This document shows, piece after piece, positions 2,530 to 14,150 of a DNA stretch of 64,000 nt. The DNA is from Dokdonella sp. Lineage in GTDB: Bacteria > Pseudomonadota > Gammaproteobacteria > Xanthomonadales > Rhodanobacteraceae. The stretch spans positions 46,244-110,243 of the forward strand of contig JAHCAR010000013.1 in assembly GCA_019634795.1 (NCBI GenBank). The letters are read 5' to 3'. The translations under genes were made by a program, and so were the position numbers. Every line of letters begins with the position of its first letter. Position 1 is the stretch's first letter. The notes beneath the pieces were generated by a model. It searched no databases, was not told where the DNA came from, and saw nothing but the letters and a program-made list of their open reading frames with translations.

Positions 2530-4938
2530 ATGAACGCCGGCAATCGCAATCGGACCCTGTTGCGGACGCTTTCCCGGCTCGCACTGGTCGTCGTACTGGT
2601 CGTTGTGGCCGTTCTGGCGGGCGGCTGGCTGGCGTTGCGCGGAAGCCTCCCGCAACTGGACGGAATGATACGTTCCTCGGCATTGACCGCCGACGTGTCG
2701 GTCCAGCGCGACGCGCTCGGCACCGTTACGGTGACAGGCCGCAATCGCGACGACGTGACCTGGGCGCTCGGATTCGTGCACGCCCAGGAGCGCTTCTTCG
2801 AGATGGACCTGATGCGACGCAGTGCAGCCGGGGAGCTGGCCGAGTTGTTCGGCAAGGCGGCCTTGCCGATCGACCGCCGTGCACGCGCCCATCGCATGCG
2901 CGCGCGCGCCGAGGCCAGCCTTGCGCTGGCCACTGCCCAGGAACGGCAATCGGTCGAGCGCTATCGCGACGGCGTCAACGCGGGCCTCGCCGCGCTGAAA
3001 GTGCGTCCGTTCCCTTACCTGTTGACCGGCACGACGCCGCGGCCATGGAGTAGTGAAGACACGGTTCTCGTTGTCGATGCGATGTATTTTTCGCTCAACG
3101 ACGCGGGCAACCGGCGCGAACTCGCGTTCTCGACGATGAAGGCCGCCCTGCCCGACTCCGCCTGGCGGTTTCTCTCGGCGACCGGCGGCCCCTGGGATGC
3201 ACCCTTGAGCGGGCCGCCGATGCGCTGGCCAGATCCGCCACCACCCGGCGATCTCGACCTGCGCGCCATCGATGCATCCTTGCTGCGCGGCACCGACGCA
3301 TCCAGCGGAAATGTTCCGGGCAGCAACAGTTTTGCCGTCGGCGGCGGCCTGACCGGCGGCGCCGGCATGATCGCCAACGACATGCATCTCGAGCTGCGCG
3401 TGCCGGACATCTGGTTCAGGGCCCGTCTGATATTCCCGAACCCGCGACGCGCGGGTGAGACCACAGATGTCAGCGGCGCCAGCCTGCCCGGCACGCCGGC
3501 GATCATCGCCGGCAGCAACCGGGCGATCGCCTGGGGTTTCACCAACAGCTATGCGGATCTGACCGACTGGGTGCGCGTGATCGCCGACCCGGCCGACCCG
3601 AAGCGTTATCGCACGGCCGATGGCAGCGAACCGATCAGCACCTACACCGAGTCTATCCGCGTCAAGGGCGAGCCCGCCGAGCCCCTGGAAATCCGCGAAA
3701 CGCGCTGGGGCCCCATACTGGCGGACGACGTCGATGGCACGCCGCTGGCCCTGGCCTGGACCGCGCACCGCGAGGGTGCGGTCAATCTCGACCTGATGCG
3801 CCTAGAAACCGCCGAAACCGCGGACGAAGGGGTCGCGATCGCCCAGCAGGCCGGCATGCCGGCGCAGAATTTCCTCGTCGCCGACCGTTTCGGCAATATC
3901 GCCTGGAGCATCGCCGGGCGCATACCGAGGCGCAGCGGCGGGTTCGATCCACGCCTGCCCTCGGACTGGAGCACCCCCGATACCGGCTGGCAGGGCTGGC
4001 TGAGGCCGGAGGAACTGCCGCTGATCTCGAACCCGCCCGACAAGCGCCTGTGGACGGCCAACGCCCGCATCGTCGATGAGGGGCCGTTTCTGGACCGGCT
4101 GGGCGATGGCGGCTACGACCTTGGCGCCCGCCAGGGACAGATCCGCGACGACCTGCGTGCGCGCGACCACTTCACGAGTGCCGACATGCTCGCCATCCAA
4201 CTCGACGATCGCGCCGTATTTCTCGAGCGCTGGCATCAACGTCTCGTCAGCCTGCTCGAACACAGCCCCAGCACGCCGCTGCGCTCCAGCGTGCGTACGG
4301 CGCTCGAAGACTGGGATGGCCATGCCTCGACCTCGTCGGTCGTGTACCGCATCGTTCGGGCCTGGCGCAACGAAGTGAAGGACACGGTACTCGACGGCTT
4401 CGCCGCCGCCGTCCGGGTCCACTACCCGGAGTTCGAGCTTCCCAAGCTCGGGCAAGCGGAACATGCGGTCTGGATGCTGCTCGAACGCCGTCCGCCGCAC
4501 CTGCTGCCGGCCGGCTACGCCAGCTGGGAAGGGCTGCAGGAAGCCTGCCTGGACCGTGTCGCCGAACGCCTGCAGTCGCAGACGGGCGGCATTGCCGAGC
4601 GCAGCTGGGGTGAACGCAACACCGCGCGCATCGCGCATCCGCTGTCGCGTGCGCTGCCCGGGTTCCTTGCCGCCTATCTGGACATGCCGGCCGACCCGCT
4701 ACCGGGCGACAGCAACATGCCGCGCGTGCAGGGCCCGAAGTTCGGTGCCTCTGAGCGATTCGCGGTCGCCCCGGGTGACGAGGCGCATGGCTATTTCGAA
4801 TTGCCCGGCGGGCAGAGCGGGCACCCACTGTCACCGTTCTACGGCGCCGGACACGAGGACTGGGTGCAAGGAAAGCCGACACCGTTCCTTCCCGGCCCGG
4901 CAATCCATGAACTGCGTTTCGAACCCGGCCCGGGCTAA
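2530..4938 (+). CDS. Penicillin acylase family protein (Ntn hydrolase, possible AHL acylase)
   Basis: 802 aa, the usual length for the penicillin/cephalosporin/acyl-homoserine-lactone acylase family, which self-cleaves into alpha and beta chains and hydrolyses an amide. An N-terminal hydrophobic segment (about 17-38) exports or anchors it. The alpha chain shows 'WALGFVHAQERFFEMDLMRR' and 'AAGELAELFG'. The predicted beta-chain N-terminal nucleophile is Ser265 in 'PGSNSFAVGGG', followed by 'ANDMHLELRVPDIWF' (family form 'NDPHL'). Near the end come 'GPKFGASERFAV' and 'PGGQSGHPLSPFYG', both family-typical. The substrate cannot be read from sequence: beta-lactam, AHL or another N-acyl compound are all possible. 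It stands alone, convergent with the next gene across a terminator. Confidence 0.88.
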   Translation: MNAGNRNRTLLRTLSRLALVVVLVVVAVLAGGWLALRGSLPQLDGMIRSSALTADVSVQRDALGTVTVTGRNRDDVTWALGFVHAQERFFEMDLMRRSAAGELAELFGKAALPIDRRARAHRMRARAEASLALATAQERQSVERYRDGVNAGLAALKVRPFPYLLTGTTPRPWSSEDTVLVVDAMYFSLNDAGNRRELAFSTMKAALPDSAWRFLSATGGPWDAPLSGPPMRWPDPPPPGDLDLRAIDASLLRGTDASSGNVPGSNSFAVGGGLTGGAGMIANDMHLELRVPDIWFRARLIFPNPRRAGETTDVSGASLPGTPAIIAGSNRAIAWGFTNSYADLTDWVRVIADPADPKRYRTADGSEPISTYTESIRVKGEPAEPLEIRETRWGPILADDVDGTPLALAWTAHREGAVNLDLMRLETAETADEGVAIAQQAGMPAQNFLVADRFGNIAWSIAGRIPRRSGGFDPRLPSDWSTPDTGWQGWLRPEELPLISNPPDKRLWTANARIVDEGPFLDRLGDGGYDLGARQGQIRDDLRARDHFTSADMLAIQLDDRAVFLERWHQRLVSLLEHSPSTPLRSSVRTALEDWDGHASTSSVVYRIVRAWRNEVKDTVLDGFAAAVRVHYPEFELPKLGQAEHAVWMLLERRPPHLLPAGYASWEGLQEACLDRVAERLQSQTGGIAERSWGERNTARIAHPLSRALPGFLAAYLDMPADPLPGDSNMPRVQGPKFGASERFAVAPGDEAHGYFELPGGQSGHPLSPFYGAGHEDWVQGKPTPFLPGPAIHELRFEPGPG

Positions 4939-4945
4939 TCCATCG

Positions 4946-4974
4946 CCTCGACGGGTGCGCGGCACCCGTCGAGG
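4946..4974. terminator. Bidirectional hairpin terminator
   Basis: A perfect 13-bp stem (cctcgacgggtgc / gcacccgtcgagg) with a 3-nt loop sits in the 54-bp gap between the convergent acylase gene and the 671-aa secreted-protein gene. Confidence 0.75.
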
Positions 4975-4992
4975 TCGAGTCGGAAACGAGAC

Positions 4993-7008
4993 CTACGGCG
5001 ATTCGAATCCGTCAACGAAGATCGTGTCGCTGAGCGGCCCGAGCAGATCGGCGGTCATCGTCTGTGGCGTACCGGATTCTGCGACATGCAGGCTGGTCGC
5101 GACCTGCTGCGGACCGCCATCGGCGACAAACGAGAACCGGAACATCGTTCCCCAGTTGAGCGGATTGCGTACCGGCGGCACGTTTGCTTGCGGTGCGGGA
5201 TCGACCGGTGCTGCCCAGGTCAACTTCCCACCCAGAATCGAACTGGTCCAGTCGTTTCCGCTGTCGCTGTCGCCGTCCTTGAAAAGGATGTTGCTGACGT
5301 TGACCCCGGGCGCGATCGGCACCATGAAGCGATCGAAGCCGAAATTGTGCACGACACGCAGGTTCGGCTCGCTGCCTTCGGTGTAGGCGCGCGCGAAGTC
5401 GAAGTTCATGATGACGAAGTCATAACGCCAGGAACCCCCACCGAGGTCGAATACCTTGACCGCGGCCTTGACATGCCCCTCGCTGCTCACGAGCTCCTTG
5501 GAGGCCACCGCGCCACCGGGTACCGCGACATCGAGCCAGCGGTCGATGGCGGGCCCCAATCGATAGGCAGCGCCGCTGCCGACGTTCCAGCTCGTGCCGC
5601 TGCGGGTCGGTGAAAGACCGCGGGTCGCCATCGAGTTGTAGATGTTGATGTCTTCGCGGGCCAGGTACCACGACTCGAACAGGTAGGTGGCGCCGACCTG
5701 CACGGCCGGGTCCATGTCCGATTCGACGACGATCAGGCGCTGGGAAAAATTGCCATTGCCCGAAGAGTTCGAGTTGCCGTCGCAATTGGTGTCGTAGATC
5801 GAGCCGCAGCGACCCCACTGGTTGGTGGCCGGGATGATCTCGGAGCGCGGGCCCAGATCGTTGTTGCTGTCATTGTTGCCGGTTCCGTAGGTGTCCGAAC
5901 ACTGGCGACCGAGAATATGCGAGTTGGTGCCGTGGCCCGGAGCACAGCCCTGGTTGGTGGTCAGGAACGCATGCTTGACGCCGGAACGACCGATCGGATC
6001 GATGCTGCCATCGGGATTGAAGCGATACATGTTCCAGATCAGGTACGGATGCTGGTCATTGTTGTAGGGTGGCGAAGGCGAGGTGAACTTGCTGTACCAC
6101 GGAATATCCGCGGTCCAAAGCGCCGTGCTCGTACCGAGCGGATCACCGGGTATGGTGGCGACCGCAGCACCGTCGTTGACGTTGTTCTGCAGGGTCGAGC
6201 TCGGCGTGAACACGACCTGGCCGGTACTCGATGAGCCCGTGCATCCATTGCAGCGACTGTACTGCACACTGAACGTCTTCATGAACAGGTCGGCCTGGAA
6301 GACCGTACCCTTCGGTTGGCCCGGCACCTGGGTGCCAGCCCAGTCGTAGACGCCGCCACCCGCCGGTACCGCGCCGCTGCCCTGGGTCAGCACCTGGGTC
6401 GTCATTTCCATGTCGGCGATCGCCCAGTTGGCCATGTCGGGATGGCCGAGGCGAGTCGCCAGGTCCGGACTCACACGCAGATCCATGGTGCGAACGGCGA
6501 GCACCCTGTTTTCGTCGACCAGCTCGTACATGAGGCGATCGACATAGAACCAGGCCTTGCCGTCGGCACCGACGAGGTCGAGGACCAGCGGATTGTCGGC
6601 GCGCGTCTTGAGGCGGAAATCGGTGAGGTCGATGTCGCCGCTGGCGGTCTTGAGCACATAGCCGCCACGGGCCTGCACCGAACCTCCGACGAACGATTGC
6701 AGATTGCCGTTGGCAACGCGGAAATCGAGACTGCCGGCCTGTCGAACGGCGAAGCGCTCATGCTCGCGCCAGCTCGGACCCTCGAGGCGCCCGCTCGGTT
6801 CGGCGAACCGGATGCCCATGTCGGACGCGAGTTCACGGTTCCAGCGAATACCGATTTCGCCGCCCCAAGCCGACCAGAGCTGGTCAGAGCCCGGACTCGA
6901 AGCGGATGGACGAGTCTGTCCGGCATTTGCGCTTACCCCGTACGAGCAAGCGAGGACTGCGGCCACGGCGAGGGCCACGGCCCGAACATTTGACATCAGC
7001 GTGATCAT
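4993..7008 (-). CDS. Large secreted protein of unknown function, 'IFVDGFESP' tail
   Basis: 671 aa. A signal peptide occupies about 1-29 (LACSYGVSANAG). The mature protein is rich in Gly, Asn and Asp and has cysteines likely to form disulfides ('SRCNGCTG', 'RCGSIYDTNCDG'). The stretch 'VKHAFLTTNQGCAPG', then 'CSDTYGTGNNDS' and 'LGPRSEI', resembles a family of secreted proteins I recall from planctomycetes and other environmental bacteria ('VKHGF..', 'CSDPY..GLN', 'LGPRSEV'); its function is unknown to me. The C-terminus 'DTIFVDGFESP' matches tails on the neighbouring amine-oxidase-like proteins. An AGGTGG ribosome site 7 nt before the ATG fixes the start. It lies 89 bp downstream of the amine-oxidase-like gene on the same strand and may be the last gene of that operon. 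Confidence 0.6.
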   Translation of the reverse strand: MITLMSNVRAVALAVAAVLACSYGVSANAGQTRPSASSPGSDQLWSAWGGEIGIRWNRELASDMGIRFAEPSGRLEGPSWREHERFAVRQAGSLDFRVANGNLQSFVGGSVQARGGYVLKTASGDIDLTDFRLKTRADNPLVLDLVGADGKAWFYVDRLMYELVDENRVLAVRTMDLRVSPDLATRLGHPDMANWAIADMEMTTQVLTQGSGAVPAGGGVYDWAGTQVPGQPKGTVFQADLFMKTFSVQYSRCNGCTGSSSTGQVVFTPSSTLQNNVNDGAAVATIPGDPLGTSTALWTADIPWYSKFTSPSPPYNNDQHPYLIWNMYRFNPDGSIDPIGRSGVKHAFLTTNQGCAPGHGTNSHILGRQCSDTYGTGNNDSNNDLGPRSEIIPATNQWGRCGSIYDTNCDGNSNSSGNGNFSQRLIVVESDMDPAVQVGATYLFESWYLAREDINIYNSMATRGLSPTRSGTSWNVGSGAAYRLGPAIDRWLDVAVPGGAVASKELVSSEGHVKAAVKVFDLGGGSWRYDFVIMNFDFARAYTEGSEPNLRVVHNFGFDRFMVPIAPGVNVSNILFKDGDSDSGNDWTSSILGGKLTWAAPVDPAPQANVPPVRNPLNWGTMFRFSFVADGGPQQVATSLHVAESGTPQTMTADLLGPLSDTIFVDGFESP

Positions 7009-7097
7009 TTGATTTCCACCTGCTTGGTATTGTCAGCAGCCGCCCCTGGCAATCGTGCGCCACAACTCCAACCGCCTGAATCCGGTGTGCGGCACTA

Positions 7098-8276
7098 CTA
7101 CTCGAAACTGTCGCGGAAGATCGGCCAGTCGCCAATTCTACTGATCGTCGGCCCGACATGCTTGCAGACCATCGAATTCTGCGGCTCGCAGGTCGCGCCA
7201 CTGCATCCTGGCGGCCAGTTATTGCCATTGGCGTCGCGCACGCTGGCACGGTACCAGAAGACGACATCGGAATTCGAAATACTCTGGCTATTCGCGATGT
7301 TGGCCGATGCCATCACGCAGTCGCTCAGATTGTTGTCGCTGTGATCGGCGTACTCGTTGTTGATGAACAGGCTTCCGATGACATCGACCGAATGCAAGCC
7401 GCGGCCGGACTGGTTGGGCGGATTGTAGTCACCCGAACCGGAGACGATGCGGTAGCCGAAGCCACCCTTGTTGGTGATCACGTCCCAGTAGGTTGGACCG
7501 CCACCCGGGCCGCCGGTAGCGCTGCGCAAACCGGTGAACTCGGTGGACTGTGGAACGCCGTTGGCCAGTATTGAATTGTCGTTGGCGCCGTCGATGTCGA
7601 AATCGAAGCGCCAGTAGTTGTGGTGCCAATGGGTCAGGCCATTGTTCGTTCCATTCGAATTGCCGAATCCGAACTCGGGCTGGATGTCACCATTGTCCCA
7701 GAACGCATAGCGGCTGGTGTACTGGTACCAGGCGGCCGAATACTGGGTCGTCAGCACGACGTGGTCGCCCATGTCTTCGATGGCCACGCCGCCGGGCGAT
7801 CCGATGCAATCTGCACTGACAAAGTTGAATCCAGGGGCGCCGGTGAATGGGCAACTCCCATACGAAGCGGTTGGCGCCTGCGAGACATCGCAGCTTGTCG
7901 TTGCGATGAACGGCGTCGGCACACCGAGCATGTTGCGCACCGGGGGCGACGCGACGAAGCGCGCGTCGGCATCCTTCCAGTCCCGGTAACAGGTACTGGT
8001 GTTGCGATATTCGGCGAAGAGGATCGGCGCGTGCATGCGCTTGGCGACGAGAATGCCCTTGTAGTGGACATCCCGAAGCTCCAGTCCGGAACCGTCCGCC
8101 GCCACACTCTGGCTCGGCGGCACCCAGCACATTTCCCAGACCGGGTTCGCAGCCGGCCATTTGAGCAAGGATCCGCCCCAGAGCGAACAGTTGGCCCCGG
8201 CCGCCAGCGCGTTGGAAACGAGACCGATCCCCATCAGCAAAACACCCGCACTTGCCTTCAACACGAGACTTCGCAT
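7098..8276 (-). CDS. Secreted copper amine oxidase-like protein, copy 1 (catalytic-domain homologue only)
   Basis: 392 aa from the ATG at 8276, chosen for its AGGGGA site and for following the upstream stop by 10 nt; a longer reading from 8339 would overlap that gene. Residues 1-26 are a signal peptide. The rest follows the C-terminal catalytic domain of copper amine oxidases as I recall E. coli TynA: 'GLELRDVHY', 'FWDNGDI' (TynA FHDNGTI), 'THWHHNYWRFDFDIDG' (TynA THQHIYNFRLDLDVDG), 'SDVVFWYRASVRD' (TynA TDAVVWMTTGTTH). The topaquinone tyrosine position is kept (Tyr184 in WYQY, canonical NYDY) and so is the His-x-His copper pair (His216, His218). The third ligand position falls on Asp348. The N2/N3 domains are absent. 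The protein ends 'WPIFRDSFE'. Amine oxidation is not assured. Confidence 0.7.
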   Translation of the reverse strand: MRSLVLKASAGVLLMGIGLVSNALAAGANCSLWGGSLLKWPAANPVWEMCWVPPSQSVAADGSGLELRDVHYKGILVAKRMHAPILFAEYRNTSTCYRDWKDADARFVASPPVRNMLGVPTPFIATTSCDVSQAPTASYGSCPFTGAPGFNFVSADCIGSPGGVAIEDMGDHVVLTTQYSAAWYQYTSRYAFWDNGDIQPEFGFGNSNGTNNGLTHWHHNYWRFDFDIDGANDNSILANGVPQSTEFTGLRSATGGPGGGPTYWDVITNKGGFGYRIVSGSGDYNPPNQSGRGLHSVDVIGSLFINNEYADHSDNNLSDCVMASANIANSQSISNSDVVFWYRASVRDANGNNWPPGCSGATCEPQNSMVCKHVGPTISRIGDWPIFRDSFE

Positions 8277-8286
8277 CTGCTTTCCC

Positions 8287-8955
8287 CTATGAGTGACCTG
8301 GAATCGGATCGGGCTTCCGATCCGGATCGAGCGACGCATGGATGACGCGCCTGGACATCAGGTCGACGATCGCGTGCGCAACGTGACGCTGACCGTCGCC
8401 GGCTGAAACAATGACGTGGACACAACGCGAGCCGGCGCTGCAATCCGGCTCCTTGGCTTCGCGATAGGCAAAGCCTGCGTAGAAATTGAGGTCGCTCGCG
8501 GACAGGCGCTCATGCAGCGAAGGCTCTTCCCGCGCAAGCGCTATGGCGAGTTCGAGCTCTTCATTCGAAAAATTGAGGGTAAAGCCGGGCTTCTCGGTCC
8601 GGCTCAGCCGATCGCCGTTTTCGTCGTAAACGGTCTCGACAACGATGCCCTGGTGGTAGTCCCACCCGTACTCGACGATGACCTTGCGATTCACGCCATC
8701 CGTCGTGAATACGTCGCCATATCGGCGAACGGGTACGTAATCGGGCAGCACGATTTCGTTCGAGGCGAGGTCCGTGCGCAGCTTGTCGCCGCCGACGCCC
8801 GGCGAAGCCGAGAGGAGAGCCAGCCTGCTCCCGTCATGAGCCGGCACCGTCGATTCCGAAACATTCGTGGTGGGTCTCGACCCACCGACATGGCACGCCG
8901 ACAGCAGCACCATGATCAGGACAACCAGCGTGCCGGTAAACTTGTCTGTTGTCAT
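8287..8955 (-). CDS. Small lipoprotein paired with amine oxidase-like copy 1
   Basis: 222 aa from the ATG at 8955 (an ATG at 8970 is also possible; a longer reading from 9027 would run into the preceding gene). The lipobox is LSAC with Cys21 after a hydrophobic stretch. It is paralogous to the lipoprotein at 10184-10801: 'DYHQGIVVETVYDENGD' against 'DYSRGVTVVRTYDPNGA', and 'GSRCVHVIV...IVDLMSRRVIH' against 'GSRCIRVIA...VVDLMTDRVVY'. The C-terminal half resembles the N2/N3 domains of copper amine oxidases, with an acidic helix then the 'VDL...(K/R)V(I/V)' strand. That is a weak, from-memory resemblance. If real, the pair would be one enzyme split into a membrane-anchored accessory chain and a secreted catalytic chain. 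No other function is recognisable. Confidence 0.6.
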   Translation of the reverse strand: MTTDKFTGTLVVLIMVLLSACHVGGSRPTTNVSESTVPAHDGSRLALLSASPGVGGDKLRTDLASNEIVLPDYVPVRRYGDVFTTDGVNRKVIVEYGWDYHQGIVVETVYDENGDRLSRTEKPGFTLNFSNEELELAIALAREEPSLHERLSASDLNFYAGFAYREAKEPDCSAGSRCVHVIVSAGDGQRHVAHAIVDLMSRRVIHASLDPDRKPDPIPGHS

Positions 8956-8983
8956 TGCGATGCTCGCCATACTCGTGGAAAAA

Positions 8984-10180
8984 CTACAGGTGCGCCCCGG
9001 GAACCAGCACGTCGAAGCCGTTGGCAAAGATGTAGTCCGCCCAAGGCCCTATCGGCACCAGGGTCGGACCCGCCTTCTTGCAGACCATCGAATCCTGCGG
9101 CAGGCAGCTGCCGCCGCTGCATCCGGGCGGCCAGCTGTTGGCGGTCGTGTCGCGCACGCTGACATGGTAGTAAAGCGCCTGGTTGGTGTTGGCGATGCTC
9201 TCGCCGTTGACAAGGTTTTCCTTGTGCATTTCGCAGTCGAACAGGTCGTAGCTCGGGGTATCGCCGTATTCGCCGACATGGGCTTTCGTGGCCATGAAGT
9301 CGACGGTATGGAAACCCCGGCCCGACTCGTTGGTCTGGAAAGCGTAGTCGCTCGCACCGGGAACGAGCCGATAACCATTTCCCGAGACGGCATTGCGCAC
9401 GGACCATGTGCGCGGCCCTCCCCCAATGCCACCGCCGACGTTGCGAACGTCGCTGAACTCGACCGACTGGTCGGTGTTGTCGATGCTGACGACGTTGTTG
9501 CCCAATCCGTCGATGTCGAACTCGAACCGCCAGTAGTTGTGGTGCCAATGCGTGACGTCATTGAAGGTTCCATTCCGGTTGCCGAAGCCGAAGGAAGGCT
9601 GCATTCGCCCATCGGAATAGAACACGAAACGCGACGAGTACATGTACCAGTCCGCGATGTACTGCGCGGTCAGTCTGACGCTGTCGCCGAGGTCTTCGAT
9701 CGTGACCCCGTTCGCACAGGTGTAGCCCGGATTGCTGAGAGCGAATGGACAAGTCCCGTATGACTGCGTGGGTTGATCGGAGCGATCGCATGAGGTGATG
9801 GCCGCCGGCGAGTTGGGATCAGGAACTGTGCCGAGCTGATTCTGCACCGCAGGAAGCGAAAAAATCGGCGTCCTGATGTCCTTCCAGTCCCGGTAGCAGT
9901 CGCCACCGAAGCCATCCTTGTACTCGGCGAACAGCATCGGCGCATGCGCCCTGCGCATGACCAGCTGCCCGTTCCAGTAGACGTTTCGCAATTCCATGCC
10001 GGAGCCGCGCGGACCCACGCTCTGATCCGGTCCCAGCCAGCACATCTCCCAGATCGGATTCGTGCTCGGCCAGCTCAGCTTGACCTCCGGCGCCACGCAG
10101 GTGGGCGATGCCGCCCGCGCGACCGGGACTGCCGCCGGGACGAGGAGAACCAATGCAAACAGGTAACGCAGCCGGAACAT
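8984..10180 (-). CDS. Secreted copper amine oxidase-like protein, copy 2
   Basis: 398 aa, a paralogue of the 7098-8276 product with the same architecture: signal peptide (1-23, ARAAS), 'NPIWEMCW' entry motif, 'GMELRNVYWNGQLV', then catalytic-domain motifs. The topaquinone-site tyrosine is Tyr179 in WYMY, the His-x-His pair is His211/His213 in 'THWHHNYW', and the third-ligand position is Asp344 in 'SVRDTTANSW'. 'GGPRTWSVRN' echoes TynA GGPRTSTMQV. Extra cysteine pairs (PPGCSGGSC, SMVCKK) are shared with copy 1. The tail is 'DYIFANGFD' plus eight residues. A strong GGAGG site 8 nt upstream overlaps the end of the lipoprotein gene at 10184, so the two are probably translationally coupled. Confidence 0.7.
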   Translation of the reverse strand: MFRLRYLFALVLLVPAAVPVARAASPTCVAPEVKLSWPSTNPIWEMCWLGPDQSVGPRGSGMELRNVYWNGQLVMRRAHAPMLFAEYKDGFGGDCYRDWKDIRTPIFSLPAVQNQLGTVPDPNSPAAITSCDRSDQPTQSYGTCPFALSNPGYTCANGVTIEDLGDSVRLTAQYIADWYMYSSRFVFYSDGRMQPSFGFGNRNGTFNDVTHWHHNYWRFEFDIDGLGNNVVSIDNTDQSVEFSDVRNVGGGIGGGPRTWSVRNAVSGNGYRLVPGASDYAFQTNESGRGFHTVDFMATKAHVGEYGDTPSYDLFDCEMHKENLVNGESIANTNQALYYHVSVRDTTANSWPPGCSGGSCLPQDSMVCKKAGPTLVPIGPWADYIFANGFDVLVPGAHL

Positions 10181-10183
10181 CTT

Positions 10184-10801
10184 TCAACCTCCATCCGAAT
10201 GACGGGCGACGGTCTTTCCGGAAGGAACATATCTCGGATAGACCACGCGATCGGTCATCAGGTCGACAACGGAATGCAGAATGACGTCGTCGCCTCCGTG
10301 AATCGCGGCGATGACGCGAATGCAACGCGAACCCCGATCGCAATACTTGTCTCCAGGCTCCCTCATGACGAAACCGCCGTGCCAAAGTACGACGCCGGGT
10401 GCATTGACGATATCGCTTATTCGCGGATCGGCGCGAACGAGGGCTTCGACCCGGGCCTGCTCGACGTCGGTCAGGCTCACGTCGGCACCGGGCGGCTCCT
10501 GGGTCGCGATGAGAGCGCCGTTCGGATCATAGGTTCGAACCACGGTGACGCCGCGTGAGTAGTCGAAGCCCCGGGTCACGATGCAGCGCTCGTCATCCCT
10601 GCGGCTGGCCTGACCCGGACAGAAATCCGTGACCCGCTTTGCCTCGATGTAGCCGCGCATCCTGCCGCTGTGATCAATGCCTGTCAGCGCATCGTTGCCG
10701 GACTTCGGGCCCGTCGCGCATCCGCATAGCAGGAACAGCACGGAGCCCAGCAGGGCGCATTGCCTGCCGATGTGTGCCCGTTTGAAGTTCCTGCGTGACA
10801 T
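10184..10801 (-). CDS. Small lipoprotein paired with amine oxidase-like copy 2
   Basis: 205 aa. A positively charged N-terminus, hydrophobic helix and lipobox 'LCGC' (Cys28; the Cys at -2 is unusual) mark a lipoprotein. It is paralogous to the 8287-8955 product and keeps the same position, immediately before its amine-oxidase-like partner (3 nt apart). Shared features are the 'RGSRC' cysteine, the D-Y-x-x-G strand and the 'VVDLMTDRVVY' strand. It starts 10 nt after the stop of the pentaheme cytochrome gene with only a weak ribosome site, suggesting coupling. Function unknown; an accessory or N-terminal-domain chain of the oxidase is inferred from order and resemblance. Confidence 0.6.
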   Translation of the reverse strand: MSRRNFKRAHIGRQCALLGSVLFLLCGCATGPKSGNDALTGIDHSGRMRGYIEAKRVTDFCPGQASRRDDERCIVTRGFDYSRGVTVVRTYDPNGALIATQEPPGADVSLTDVEQARVEALVRADPRISDIVNAPGVVLWHGGFVMREPGDKYCDRGSRCIRVIAAIHGGDDVILHSVVDLMTDRVVYPRYVPSGKTVARHSDGG

Positions 10802-10811
10802 GGCGATGGAC

Positions 10812-12722
10812 TCAGTTGGGCGTGGTCACGGTGGAGACGTTGCCGGCCGTTTCCGGAGGCGACCTGCCGTAGGTCGGGTTGTTCCACAGCGCGTACATGT
10901 ATTCGCCGCGCGAGGCCGATTGTGGACCGATGTCGAAGGGCCGACCCGGACCGCCCGCACACAATGTGTTTTCCGCCGGAATCGCCGGCGGCTCGGTCGC
11001 CTGGTCGCGCAGGAACTCGATGTAGTCCTTGCTCGACATCTGGAACTTCAGCTCGGCGTCGACATGGACCGGCCGATCGGTGCCGGCCGGCAGCGTAAAG
11101 GTGTAGTCGGTCGTGTCGTAGTTGACCAGGACGCCCGAGCCCGGCGAGGTCTCGGGGTAGCTGTAGCCGACCGGTCGCAGCTCATCGCCATTCGGATCTC
11201 CCGGGGTGACCGGGCGGAAACCCAGCGGCGGGATGCGGTTGTCCTTGCGGATGCAGTTGTTGAGGACGAAGTGGAACTGGGCCTTGCCGGCCTCCTCGAT
11301 CTTGCACTCGCCCGGCGAGCCCGGTGTCCAGATTCCCTGCAGGGTCTCGTAGATCTTGGCCTGGGGATCGATGGTCAGATCGGCAGTCAGCGGATCGTAG
11401 GCGGCGCTTTCCGCGACCACGGCGTCGGTTGCGCTGACCGCCTTGACGTTGAGCCACATGCGGCGGCCCTCGGCGTAGCCGGTCGGCAGCTTGTGTCCGC
11501 TCAGGTTGGTGACCTTGACGCGGACGCTGATGGAGCCCGCGGCACCTGCGGTCGGCGCCGTATAGGCGAGGATGCTCGTCTCCACGCTCGCACTCGAGGC
11601 AAGCATGGCCCGGGCGCTGGTGATCGTGCGCTCATAGTCGGCCTCGCGGCCGAAACCGGTCACGTTGTTGGCGTATTCGACCTTGATGATGCCGGGGATC
11701 CAGGTGTTCGCACCGACGAATTCGTGGACCGGCAGATTGCCGGTACGCGAACCGTCCGGGTTCTGGTTGCAGGCCTTCGCGGTCGGATCCTGGCTCGAAC
11801 GCATGTGGCAGCTCTGGCACTGCTGGGCGCGCGCGAAAGCGGGCGTGCCCGATGGGCCTTCACCGAGGCCATCGCGATAGATCGTGTCGGCGAACAGGCT
11901 GCTGCTCCATTCCGAATAGGTACGCTCGACCGGCATCGGACGGGTGGTCGCCACGCCGCCTTCGAGAACGAGGGTCTTGAGTGGGCCCTCGTCGGTATCG
12001 GGCGTGGACACGTCGTGGCACGAGCCGCAAATCTGCGACTGCTCGTGGTATTCGGATTTGACCCAGCCATGCGGCGGCTCGAGCATGCCGGTGGTATAGG
12101 TGTAGGGGCCGCGCCGGCACGGTCCGCCATACTGGGATCCGTCCGGATTCGTGCACGTGGTCGTGTTGTCGATCCAGGTATTGGCATTGCCGATCATGCC
12201 GGGCTCGCCGTTCGGACCGGTCGGCATCATGCGATGGCAAAAGTGACAGGTCAGCCCCGAGTAATCGTTGCCCTTGCTGTCGAAGTTGTCGTAATCGCCG
12301 GTCAACTGGCAGCCACTGGCACCGCCGGGACCACTGGTACCGCCACCGACGGCCTTGACCACGCGCCCGTTCAGCCAACCTGGCGGCGTGTGGCAGCGCA
12401 GGCAGAAGTCGCCGACCCCGGGGAAGTCCTTGTTGGCCACGTCGAGCGCCGCCCAGAACAGCGGATCGCGGGTCGCATTGGCCATCATCGAGCCGCTCCA
12501 TGTGCTGTGCGGCATGTATTCCGGCGCGGTTCCACTGAAGCCGCGATGGCAAGAGCTGCAGGCATCGGGCTCTTCCAGCGCCCAGAGCAGGCCGGGCTGG
12601 GTGCCATGTGGCGTGAAATCAAGAGCCAGCGCGTGCGTGGAAACGAGCAATGCACCGATCAGCAGCAAAAACTGCGATACGCGACGGACTGAGGGCCGGC
12701 TGGCCGGGAAACTGGATCGCAA
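10812..12722 (-). CDS. Secreted pentaheme c-type cytochrome
   Basis: 636 aa from a TTG start at 12722. The frame is open to an ATG-equivalent at 12938, but that reading puts 72 non-signal-like residues first, whereas TTG gives a clean signal peptide (ending THALA) behind a GAGG. Five CxxCH heme sites: CSSCH (55-59), CLRCH (107-111), CHFCH (159-163), CGSCH (232-236) and CQSCH (302-306). The layout resembles the cytochrome c554/multiheme group. A C-terminal beta-rich region begins with 'VTNLSGHKLPTGYAEGRR', a motif I associate with secreted multiheme cytochromes, whose His may ligate heme. It is the first gene of the lipoprotein/amine-oxidase-like run, so it is a natural electron acceptor for that pair. 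That role is inference. Confidence 0.8.
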   Translation of the reverse strand: MRSSFPASRPSVRRVSQFLLLIGALLVSTHALALDFTPHGTQPGLLWALEEPDACSSCHRGFSGTAPEYMPHSTWSGSMMANATRDPLFWAALDVANKDFPGVGDFCLRCHTPPGWLNGRVVKAVGGGTSGPGGASGCQLTGDYDNFDSKGNDYSGLTCHFCHRMMPTGPNGEPGMIGNANTWIDNTTTCTNPDGSQYGGPCRRGPYTYTTGMLEPPHGWVKSEYHEQSQICGSCHDVSTPDTDEGPLKTLVLEGGVATTRPMPVERTYSEWSSSLFADTIYRDGLGEGPSGTPAFARAQQCQSCHMRSSQDPTAKACNQNPDGSRTGNLPVHEFVGANTWIPGIIKVEYANNVTGFGREADYERTITSARAMLASSASVETSILAYTAPTAGAAGSISVRVKVTNLSGHKLPTGYAEGRRMWLNVKAVSATDAVVAESAAYDPLTADLTIDPQAKIYETLQGIWTPGSPGECKIEEAGKAQFHFVLNNCIRKDNRIPPLGFRPVTPGDPNGDELRPVGYSYPETSPGSGVLVNYDTTDYTFTLPAGTDRPVHVDAELKFQMSSKDYIEFLRDQATEPPAIPAENTLCAGGPGRPFDIGPQSASRGEYMYALWNNPTYGRSPPETAGNVSTVTTPN

Positions 12723-13007
12723 AGCGCATACCTCACAAATGATGGGGCCAGGGACAGGCCTATGGCCACGTCCGGTTCGATCGACGCCGCTGGACCGGCC
12801 CCCGCAAGACTGTCCGGCATGCCCTGGCAAACAGCGGTGCTTTCGAACCCGGCAGAAGTGCAGCGCGGGTCGACCCCGGATTCCATTCGAAAATGCGCCG
12901 AACGGCAAAACACTCCAATTATTACCACGAACCGGCAACCAATATCACCTTGAAGCCGGCGTCTCCGTGTTCAAATTGCGTAAATTCGGCCCTCCAGGCA
13001 ACCCGAA
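12723..13007. promoter_or_regulatory. Likely promoter region of the cytochrome/amine-oxidase-like operon
   Basis: 285 bp between dapE and the cytochrome start, conspicuously AT-richer than its surroundings around 12905-12985. On the minus strand TAATAAT (12918-12924) is a reasonable -10 element, but no good -35 is present at 16-18 bp. If it is used, the 5' leader is about 190 nt. Confidence 0.35.
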
Positions 13008-14150
13008 TCAGGCCGGGCGCTTGCCGCCCAGGAGCCGCTCGGCCACCTCAAGGTAGAGGGCCGGCAAGCGTTCGAGCTCGTCGACGCCGACATGTTCGTC
13101 GATCTTGTGGATGCTGGCGTTGACCGGCCCCAGCTCGACCACCTCCGCACCCAGCGGCGCAATGAAGCGTCCGTCCGAAGTACCGCCGGCCGTGCTCGGC
13201 TCGGGCTGGCGACCGCAGACCGCGCCGACCGCCTCGTTGACGGCGGTCCGCAAGGCGCCCTCGGCGGTCAGGAACGGTTCCCCGGAAAGTTCCCAGGTGA
13301 TCGAGAAATCGAGCCCGTGCCGGCGCAGACAGGCTTCGACGCGCTCGCGCAGGGCGTCCGCCGTGCTCGCCGTGCCGTAGCGGAAATTGAACGAAGCGGT
13401 CAGGTGCCCCGGAATGATGTTGTTGGCGCCGGTCCCGGAATGGATGTTTGAGACCTGGAACGAGGTCGGCGGGAACCCCTCGTTGCCCTCGTCCCAGCGG
13501 GCTGAAGCCAACTCGGCGAGAGCCGGGGCGAGGGCATGAATCGGATTCAGCGCCTTGTCCGGATAGGCGACATGGCCCTGGATGCCGCGCACCTCGAGAT
13601 GGCCGTGCAGTGAGCCGCGCCGACCGACCCGAATCAGGTCGCCCAGTGCGGTCTGCGAGGACGGCTCGCCAACCAGGCACCAGTCGATGCGCTGGCCGCG
13701 CCGGCGAAACTCCTCTGCGACCCGGCGCACGCCATCAATCGACGGGCCCTCCTCGTCGCTGGTCAGCAACAGGCCTAGCGTGCCGGCATGGTGCGGATGA
13801 CGCTCGACAAAGGCCTCAAGGGCCAGGGTCATTGCAGCCACGCCCGACTTCATGTCGGCGGCGCCACGCCCATAGAGTCGGCCATCGCGCAGCGTCGGCT
13901 CGAACGGCGGACTCGACCAGGCCGTCTCCGGACCGCTCGGAACGACGTCGGTGTGACCGAGAAAGACCAGCACCGGTCCGCCCTCGCCATGCGTGGCCCA
14001 GAGGTTGCAGACCTCGCCATAGCGCAGGGTCTCTACGGCGAACCCGGCGCGCGAAAGGCGGTCGCCGAGCAGGGCCTGGCAACCGTGGTCATCAGGGGTG
14101 ACCGATGCACGCCGGATCAGTTCACTGGTGAGTTCGAGGACTGCTGACAT
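13008..14150 (-). CDS. dapE: Succinyl-diaminopimelate desuccinylase
   Basis: 380 aa from the ATG at 14150 (MSAVLEL). The longer frame to 14210 adds residues not typical of the family. M20-family zinc peptidase that converts N-succinyl-LL-diaminopimelate to LL-DAP for lysine and peptidoglycan. Visible zinc-ligand and catalytic motifs: '[11 protein letters not shown]' (His, then Asp), '[11 protein letters not shown]' (bridging Asp), '[11 protein letters not shown]' (catalytic Glu pair), 'GEPSSQ', and near the end '[14 protein letters not shown]' (His). The dimerisation insert carries '[12 protein letters not shown]'. It lies 117 bp downstream of the ArsC-like gene and dapD on the same strand. 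Confidence 0.95.

Follow-up and report, generated by a model that had tools for sequence, protein, structure and literature searches.

A divergent, apparently split relative of copper amine oxidases encoded beside a pentaheme cytochrome in Dokdonella and related bacteria

Background

Copper amine oxidases (CuAOs; PF01179) are described as O2-dependent enzymes in which three copper-binding histidines are strictly conserved (PMC3382800). Pentaheme cytochromes of the ExtKL type are grouped together in a paper on cable bacteria, where they are said to be structurally similar to the pentaheme c552 of Thermochromatium tepidum, and where a proposed link of this type to archaeal cytochrome nanowires is cited (PMC11976967). 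The present article concerns a locus where relatives of both are encoded side by side. It lies on the minus strand of a stretch of 64,000 nucleotides (hereafter the window) from a Dokdonella genome (3.87 Mb, 85% complete, 51 contigs), and it consists of a pentaheme c-type cytochrome, two consecutive pairs of a lipoprotein (A) and an exported CuAO catalytic-domain homologue (B), and a large exported protein (D).

With CuAOs such as the E. coli enzyme and Arthrobacter AGAO, B shares the fold, the HxH motif, the tyrosine precursor of the cofactor, two further active-site tyrosines and a candidate aspartate, and the part that resembles CuAO domains N2-N3 is found, by profile comparison, on the separate protein A. 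Unlike CuAOs, the system in the window is split over two genes, B is about 15% identical to AGAO, an aspartate stands in the place of the third copper histidine and a tryptophan in that of the quinone-motif asparagine, and a multiheme open reading frame (ORF) adjoins A-B. The cytochrome has five CXXCH motifs, as do, according to the cable-bacteria paper, Geobacter ExtKL, T. tepidum c552 and the cable-bacteria PHC (PMC11976967). Unlike the ExtKL family, the cytochromes considered here are of about 620-640 residues, stay far under the NF040886 cut-off (22 vs 250 bits in the window) and are linked to A-B and D. At title and abstract level, in a literature search that had most subscription journals and bioRxiv preprints outside its coverage, we found no CuAO/multiheme-cytochrome system like this one.

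Results

The B proteins are encoded at 7098-8276 (B1, 392 residues) and 8984-10180 (B2, 398 residues, C-terminus IFANGFDVLVPGAHL). The initial annotation took them for exported proteins consisting of the CuAO catalytic-domain homologue alone, and proposed PF01179 as the check. The answer from Pfam is mixed: B1 does match PF01179 (16.8 bits, E 0.0033), under the curated cut-off of 27 bits, and B2 has no Pfam match at E up to 1. In the alignment of the B family (34 rows, that is B1, B2 and 32 others, with identity to B1 falling to 40%), PF01179 is matched by 22 rows at E up to 1, with a best E of 6.3e-7. The comparison of hidden Markov models is clearer, since hhalign aligns the B profile with canonical CuAO catalytic domains over 298 columns at a probability of 96.2% (E 2.4e-9), and a fold search with the predicted B structure returns the CuAO catalytic-domain fold over about 287 residues. 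When the B profile was searched against the PDB, two antibody chains ranked above CuAO (E 0.033 and 0.047 vs 0.27); hence we base the homology on hhalign and the fold search, to which three collinear pieces of E. coli CuAO, aligned with B in the same PDB search and in agreement with the multiple alignment, add support. As single-protein queries of the PDB, B1 and the cytochrome gave nothing useful, and A, B2 and D had almost no matches as single proteins in Pfam and NCBIfam. Despite the scores below cut-off, B is homologous to the CuAO catalytic domain, as the profile and fold comparisons concur, and the initial description of B is thereby borne out.

Eight residues are invariant in all 34 rows: Tyr90, Asp99, Trp183, Tyr184, Tyr186, His216, His218 and Asp348 (B1 numbering). 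His216-Trp-His218 (7623-7631, minus strand) aligns with the HxH of canonical CuAOs and provides the two retained metal-ligand histidines. Trp183-Tyr184 (7725-7730, minus strand) aligns with the asparagine and the topaquinone-precursor tyrosine, so that the precursor is kept in every row while the asparagine of the motif is replaced by tryptophan. Asp348 (7233-7235, minus strand) aligns with the third copper-binding histidine, which no row retains. Tyr90 and Tyr186 correspond by motif to Tyr284 and Tyr384 of AGAO; as AGAO is outside the alignments, its numbering was put on B from motif and spacing. For the catalytic base there are two candidates near the aligned position, where the loop is shorter in B, namely the invariant Asp99 and the variable Asp102. 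Given the change of the third histidine to aspartate and of the motif asparagine to tryptophan, a normal copper and topaquinone site is not to be assumed.

The lipoproteins A1 (8287-8970, minus strand, lipobox LLSAC, with an alternative ATG at 8955) and A2 (10184-10801, minus strand, 205 residues, lipobox LLCGC) are paralogues with 29% pairwise identity. They had been described as lipoproteins paired with B, to which we add that A itself resembles CuAO domains N2-N3. We compared the A family (28 rows, A1, A2 and 26 others) by hhalign with the N2-N3 regions of 21 canonical CuAOs, and it aligned with the second half of N2 and with N3 over 101 columns (probability 95.4%, E 1.9e-8, score 57.8). 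The best of 30 column shuffles scored 17.2 and the reversed profile 11.7, and the profiles of B, D and the cytochrome reached probabilities of 0.1-0.6% against the same regions. With N2-N3 from four CuAOs alone the probability for A was 32%; PF02728 had no match in the source genome at E up to 10, and the A and D profiles found chance-level matches only in the PDB. A lipobox was recognized by pattern in 20 of the 28 A rows and by visual inspection in another 3, and is lacking in the five rows from Marinicella/Alcanivoracaceae. Sequence profiles thus support a relation of A to N2-N3, and because of this resemblance each A-B pair looks like one split CuAO.

The cytochrome (10812-12722, minus strand) is an exported protein of 636 residues with a TTG start and five CXXCH motifs in its translation. 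It matches Cytochrome_C7 (E 7.4e-7), as do all 26 aligned rows (the window and 25 others), every one of which has exactly five CXXCH; a weak CCP_MauG match occurs in 1 of the 26. Against NF040886 (ExtKL) the window protein scores 22.1 bits, short of the cut-off of 250, and 22 of the 26 rows match this model at E up to 0.1, the best at 6.2e-8. A sequence profile relates the cytochrome to cytochrome c552 5ze8 (E 0.032), and it is around the GHKLPTG region that it aligns with both ExtKL and 5ze8, the nearest of its relatives to have been described. In a tree, the cytochromes adjoining A do not form a clade separate from the remaining ones.

How far the arrangement is conserved was judged from 34 loci (L025-L058) retrieved from a genome collection with B1 as the query. 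They come from related lineages, and two of them (L041 and L044) from one assembly. In these loci 39 B (one broken B counted twice), 37 A, 41 cytochrome and 30 D rows were called; 32 B, 26 A, 25 cytochrome and 24 D of these were aligned together with the proteins of the window, and the rows set aside include close duplicates and rows that are truncated or broken. The order cytochrome-A-B on one strand is present in 31 of the 34 loci. Two of the exceptions (L031, L041) end at A because of the contig end, and in the third (L046) an ORF with five CXXCH lies downstream of A-B, so that every one of the 32 loci with a readable flank has a multiheme ORF next to A-B (31 upstream, 1 downstream). D is present in 20 of the 34. 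The initial annotation made its proposal depend on this order recurring elsewhere, and indeed it does; neither of the outcomes that it named as telling against its proposal, a lack of any similarity between B and CuAO by comparison of hidden Markov models or a lack of the gene order in every other genome, was observed. In one Dokdonella metagenome-assembled genome (L050) the B gene is divided between two overlapping frames (8001-9227 and 8839-9201), and the same is seen in genome G099; the cause may be a disrupted gene or a fault of assembly.

Since these loci were retrieved through B, they are silent on cytochromes without B. We sampled 147 genomes of the family and searched them for B with one protein (E up to 0.001), a search that very divergent copies could have escaped, and for the cytochrome and D with profiles (E up to 1e-20). 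B was found in 17 genomes, the cytochrome in 30 and D in 30. Cytochrome and D occur together in 29 genomes, including all 17 with B, and in 12 genomes with no B match the two genes lie on one contig within 1.7 kb of each other. The cytochrome looks like the hub of the system, with A-B and D as partners that occur jointly or separately. The partnership between cytochrome and A-B put forward initially is conserved, with the amendment that in this family sample D is the wider partner (29 vs 17 genomes). In wider samples the B profile matched 5 of 369 genomes from the class, namely the source genome, G014 (a member of its family) and three that are distantly related, and 3 of 398 genomes from the phylum, all of which belong to the same family. 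Clustering of the flanks revealed no further partner common across lineages, and one scan of viral contigs gave no match.

Other gammaproteobacterial clusters (L067 in genome G500; L068 and L131 in genome G220) resemble the window in that a small ORF lies beside separate catalytic-domain ORFs. They differ from it in passing the PF01179 cut-off and in having tandem degenerate copies, and some of their catalytic ORFs (one each in L067 and L068, two in L131) keep HxH and a third histidine, where B of the window has aspartate. Five more distantly related CuAO-like sequences, L066, L067a, L067b, L068a and L068b, all exceed the cut-off but vary at the metal site. L066, L067b and L068b have HxH and a histidine at the aligned third-ligand position, L068a is left with one histidine of HxH and has a histidine one residue ahead of the third-ligand position, and in L067a all three ligand histidines are absent. 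We read the aspartate of B, on the evidence of the alignments, as a putative derived change. Genome G220 (L068, L131, L132) has 11 PF01179 matches, some of them in tandem clusters that combine a small ORF with degenerate and intact-looking catalytic ORFs, and one cluster lies near a YtkA-like ORF and a di-heme ORF matching CCP_MauG (E 1.9e-42), in place of the pentaheme cytochrome of the window. The A family aligns with the small ORFs of L067 and L068 at a probability of 74% (E 3.3e-6); on their own, these small ORFs reach 0.07% against canonical N2-N3 and have no Pfam match. In L066 the CuAO-like ORF (986-2653, 555 residues) has about 200 extra N-terminal residues, which the A family does not match (0.05% probability), hence we make no claim that A and B occur naturally fused.

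Within the window, the six genes follow one another on the minus strand from 12722 to 4993 as first annotated, TTG start of the cytochrome included. The spacing of 3-28 nucleotides given for the first five is also right: from the cytochrome through A2, B2, A1 and B1 to D we read gaps of 10, 3, 13 (or 28), 10 and 89 nucleotides. A consensus scan of 4700-13200 found no sigma70-like promoter (shuffle mean 1.9) and four terminator-like sites (shuffle mean 5.4), none of them between the six genes; as both counts fall under the shuffle means, this is weak evidence. The A-B unit is duplicated in the same order, B1 and B2 being 48% identical, and the closest named relative at the locus is Dokdonella immobilis (93% identity in B1). 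The duplication looks old rather than recent. In a tree of the 34 B rows and one distant row, Dokdonella B1 clusters with the single B of Tahibacter (support 100/100) and B2, with weaker support (83/78), with the copies of the D. fugitiva type, which suggests that the A-B duplication predates the split of these genera; the root of this tree is the midpoint, so that lateral transfer may also have played a part.

D (4993-7008, minus strand, 671 residues) ends in DTIFVDGFESP, and B1, B2 and D share a C-terminal tag of the form I-F-x-(D/N/S/G)-G-F-(E/D). The corresponding DNA pattern occurs 57 times in the source genome and never when read backwards, and of 30 sites that were read, 28 are no more than 25 codons away from a stop. 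No other genome in a sample of 185 from the class exceeds 3 sites. Among 127 sampled genomes of the family, 31 carry 12-143 sites each, and none of the remaining 96 has more than 2. Within the last 25 residues the strict tag is present in 21 of 34 B rows and 11 of 25 D rows, a looser version in all 34 B rows and 18 of 25 D rows, and neither in any of the 26 cytochrome rows. Some B proteins (L053, L057, L033, L034, L038, L039 and others) have extra C-terminal Ig-, cadherin- or BACON-like domains and nonetheless finish in a tag of the IFxxxFE type. NCBIfam has no model matching the C-terminal ends of B1, B2 and D, and we found no literature on this tag, possibly a so far undescribed signal for export or attachment. 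The 26 aligned cytochromes differ in this respect from two cytochrome ORFs outside the alignment (L034, 4-1044; L038, 11-1051), which have the tag-like VFADGFD and FTDGFD about 20-30 residues ahead of the C-terminus. Elsewhere in the window, an exported ORF of 554 residues (454-2118) has near its C-terminal end IPTLSTWSKLALGLFAIAFGALVLRRR; we take this signal to be of a different, known type, IPTL-CTERM.

Discussion

Our reading of the locus, to which we give a little less than an even chance, is that a split CuAO relative with an altered metal site acts as a dehydrogenase and passes its electrons to the pentaheme cytochrome rather than to O2. Each A-B pair would be a divergent CuAO relative divided into two exported polypeptides, in which A, usually a lipoprotein, would supply the N2-N3-like part and B the catalytic domain of a putative A-B complex. 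B would most likely hold its metal through His-His-Asp, perhaps together with a modified tyrosine. The complex would oxidise an extracytoplasmic substrate, for example an amine, and the electrons would flow to the cytochrome encoded upstream and not directly to O2, so that a fold known from oxidases would serve a dehydrogenase. D would be a second partner of the same cytochrome. The invariance of the site residues over rows down to 40% identity argues that B is functional, and the loss of the copper histidine and of the motif asparagine argues against ordinary O2 chemistry. The analysis establishes the layout of the locus, the homology and fold of B, its conserved residues, the order of the genes and the five heme motifs, whereas metal, cofactor, substrate, A-B complex and the path of the electrons are inferred.

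Several points weigh against this dehydrogenase. Gene order does not show electron transfer. Two residues that are hallmarks of CuAOs are replaced, so that on the aligned sequences B cannot be taken to form topaquinone or to have normal copper chemistry. No flanking gene indicating an amine substrate was found, in flank clusters that were not searched for function. Finally, 13 of the 30 cytochrome-bearing genomes have no B match, which means that the cytochrome does not depend on B.

The replacement of both the third histidine and the motif asparagine could also mean that A-B does not catalyse anything, but serves the cytochrome as a scaffold or metal-binding partner, for instance in assembly or in attachment to the surface, with the CuAO fold reused in the manner of a pseudoenzyme. 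Such a fate would accord with the degenerate CuAO-like ORFs that stand in tandem with intact-looking ones in the relatives, and for ExtK, too, a partner with an Ig-like domain is described that is encoded by a separate gene downstream (PMC11976967). Yet Tyr184, His216, His218, Asp99 and Asp348 do not vary in 34 rows that diverge to 40% identity, which would be unusual for a dead site. In our opinion a non-catalytic role is unlikely, if still worth serious attention.

An ordinary O2-dependent amine oxidase that produces H2O2 at a His-His-Asp copper site, with the cytochrome as a separate respiratory or peroxide component co-transcribed by chance, seems to us improbable. The fold of B and most of its active-site residues do match those of the oxidases, but one of the copper histidines reported to be strictly conserved in CuAOs (PMC3382800) is replaced in every B row. 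Moreover, an adjoining pentaheme cytochrome kept in 31 of 34 loci is at odds with chance.

MauG matures a quinone cofactor, and the least probable of our alternatives, that the cytochrome similarly matures a tyrosine-derived cofactor in B instead of accepting turnover electrons, draws on the di-heme CCP_MauG ORF near a split CuAO-like cluster of G220 and on the thought that an altered metal site might not support self-processing, but finds against it cytochromes that are mainly Cytochrome_C7-like (26 of 26) and ExtKL-like (22 of 26) with that one weak CCP_MauG match, and the 12 of 147 genomes in which cytochrome and D occur with no B match.

Implications

A wider and bolder form of our proposal, which we regard as rather unlikely, is that a branch of the CuAO superfamily turned from an O2 oxidase into a two-subunit, surface-exposed dehydrogenase, in which the three-histidine copper site gave way to His-His-Asp and a nanowire-related pentaheme cytochrome carries the electrons away, and that the oxidation of amines or protein side chains would here be linked to extracellular electron transfer. 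If the dehydrogenase exists as we propose, it would show how a fold used by quinoenzymes can come to deliver electrons to a respiratory carrier instead of oxygen, and the two paralogous pairs that share one cytochrome would offer a ready system for testing the roles of the third ligand and of the motif asparagine.

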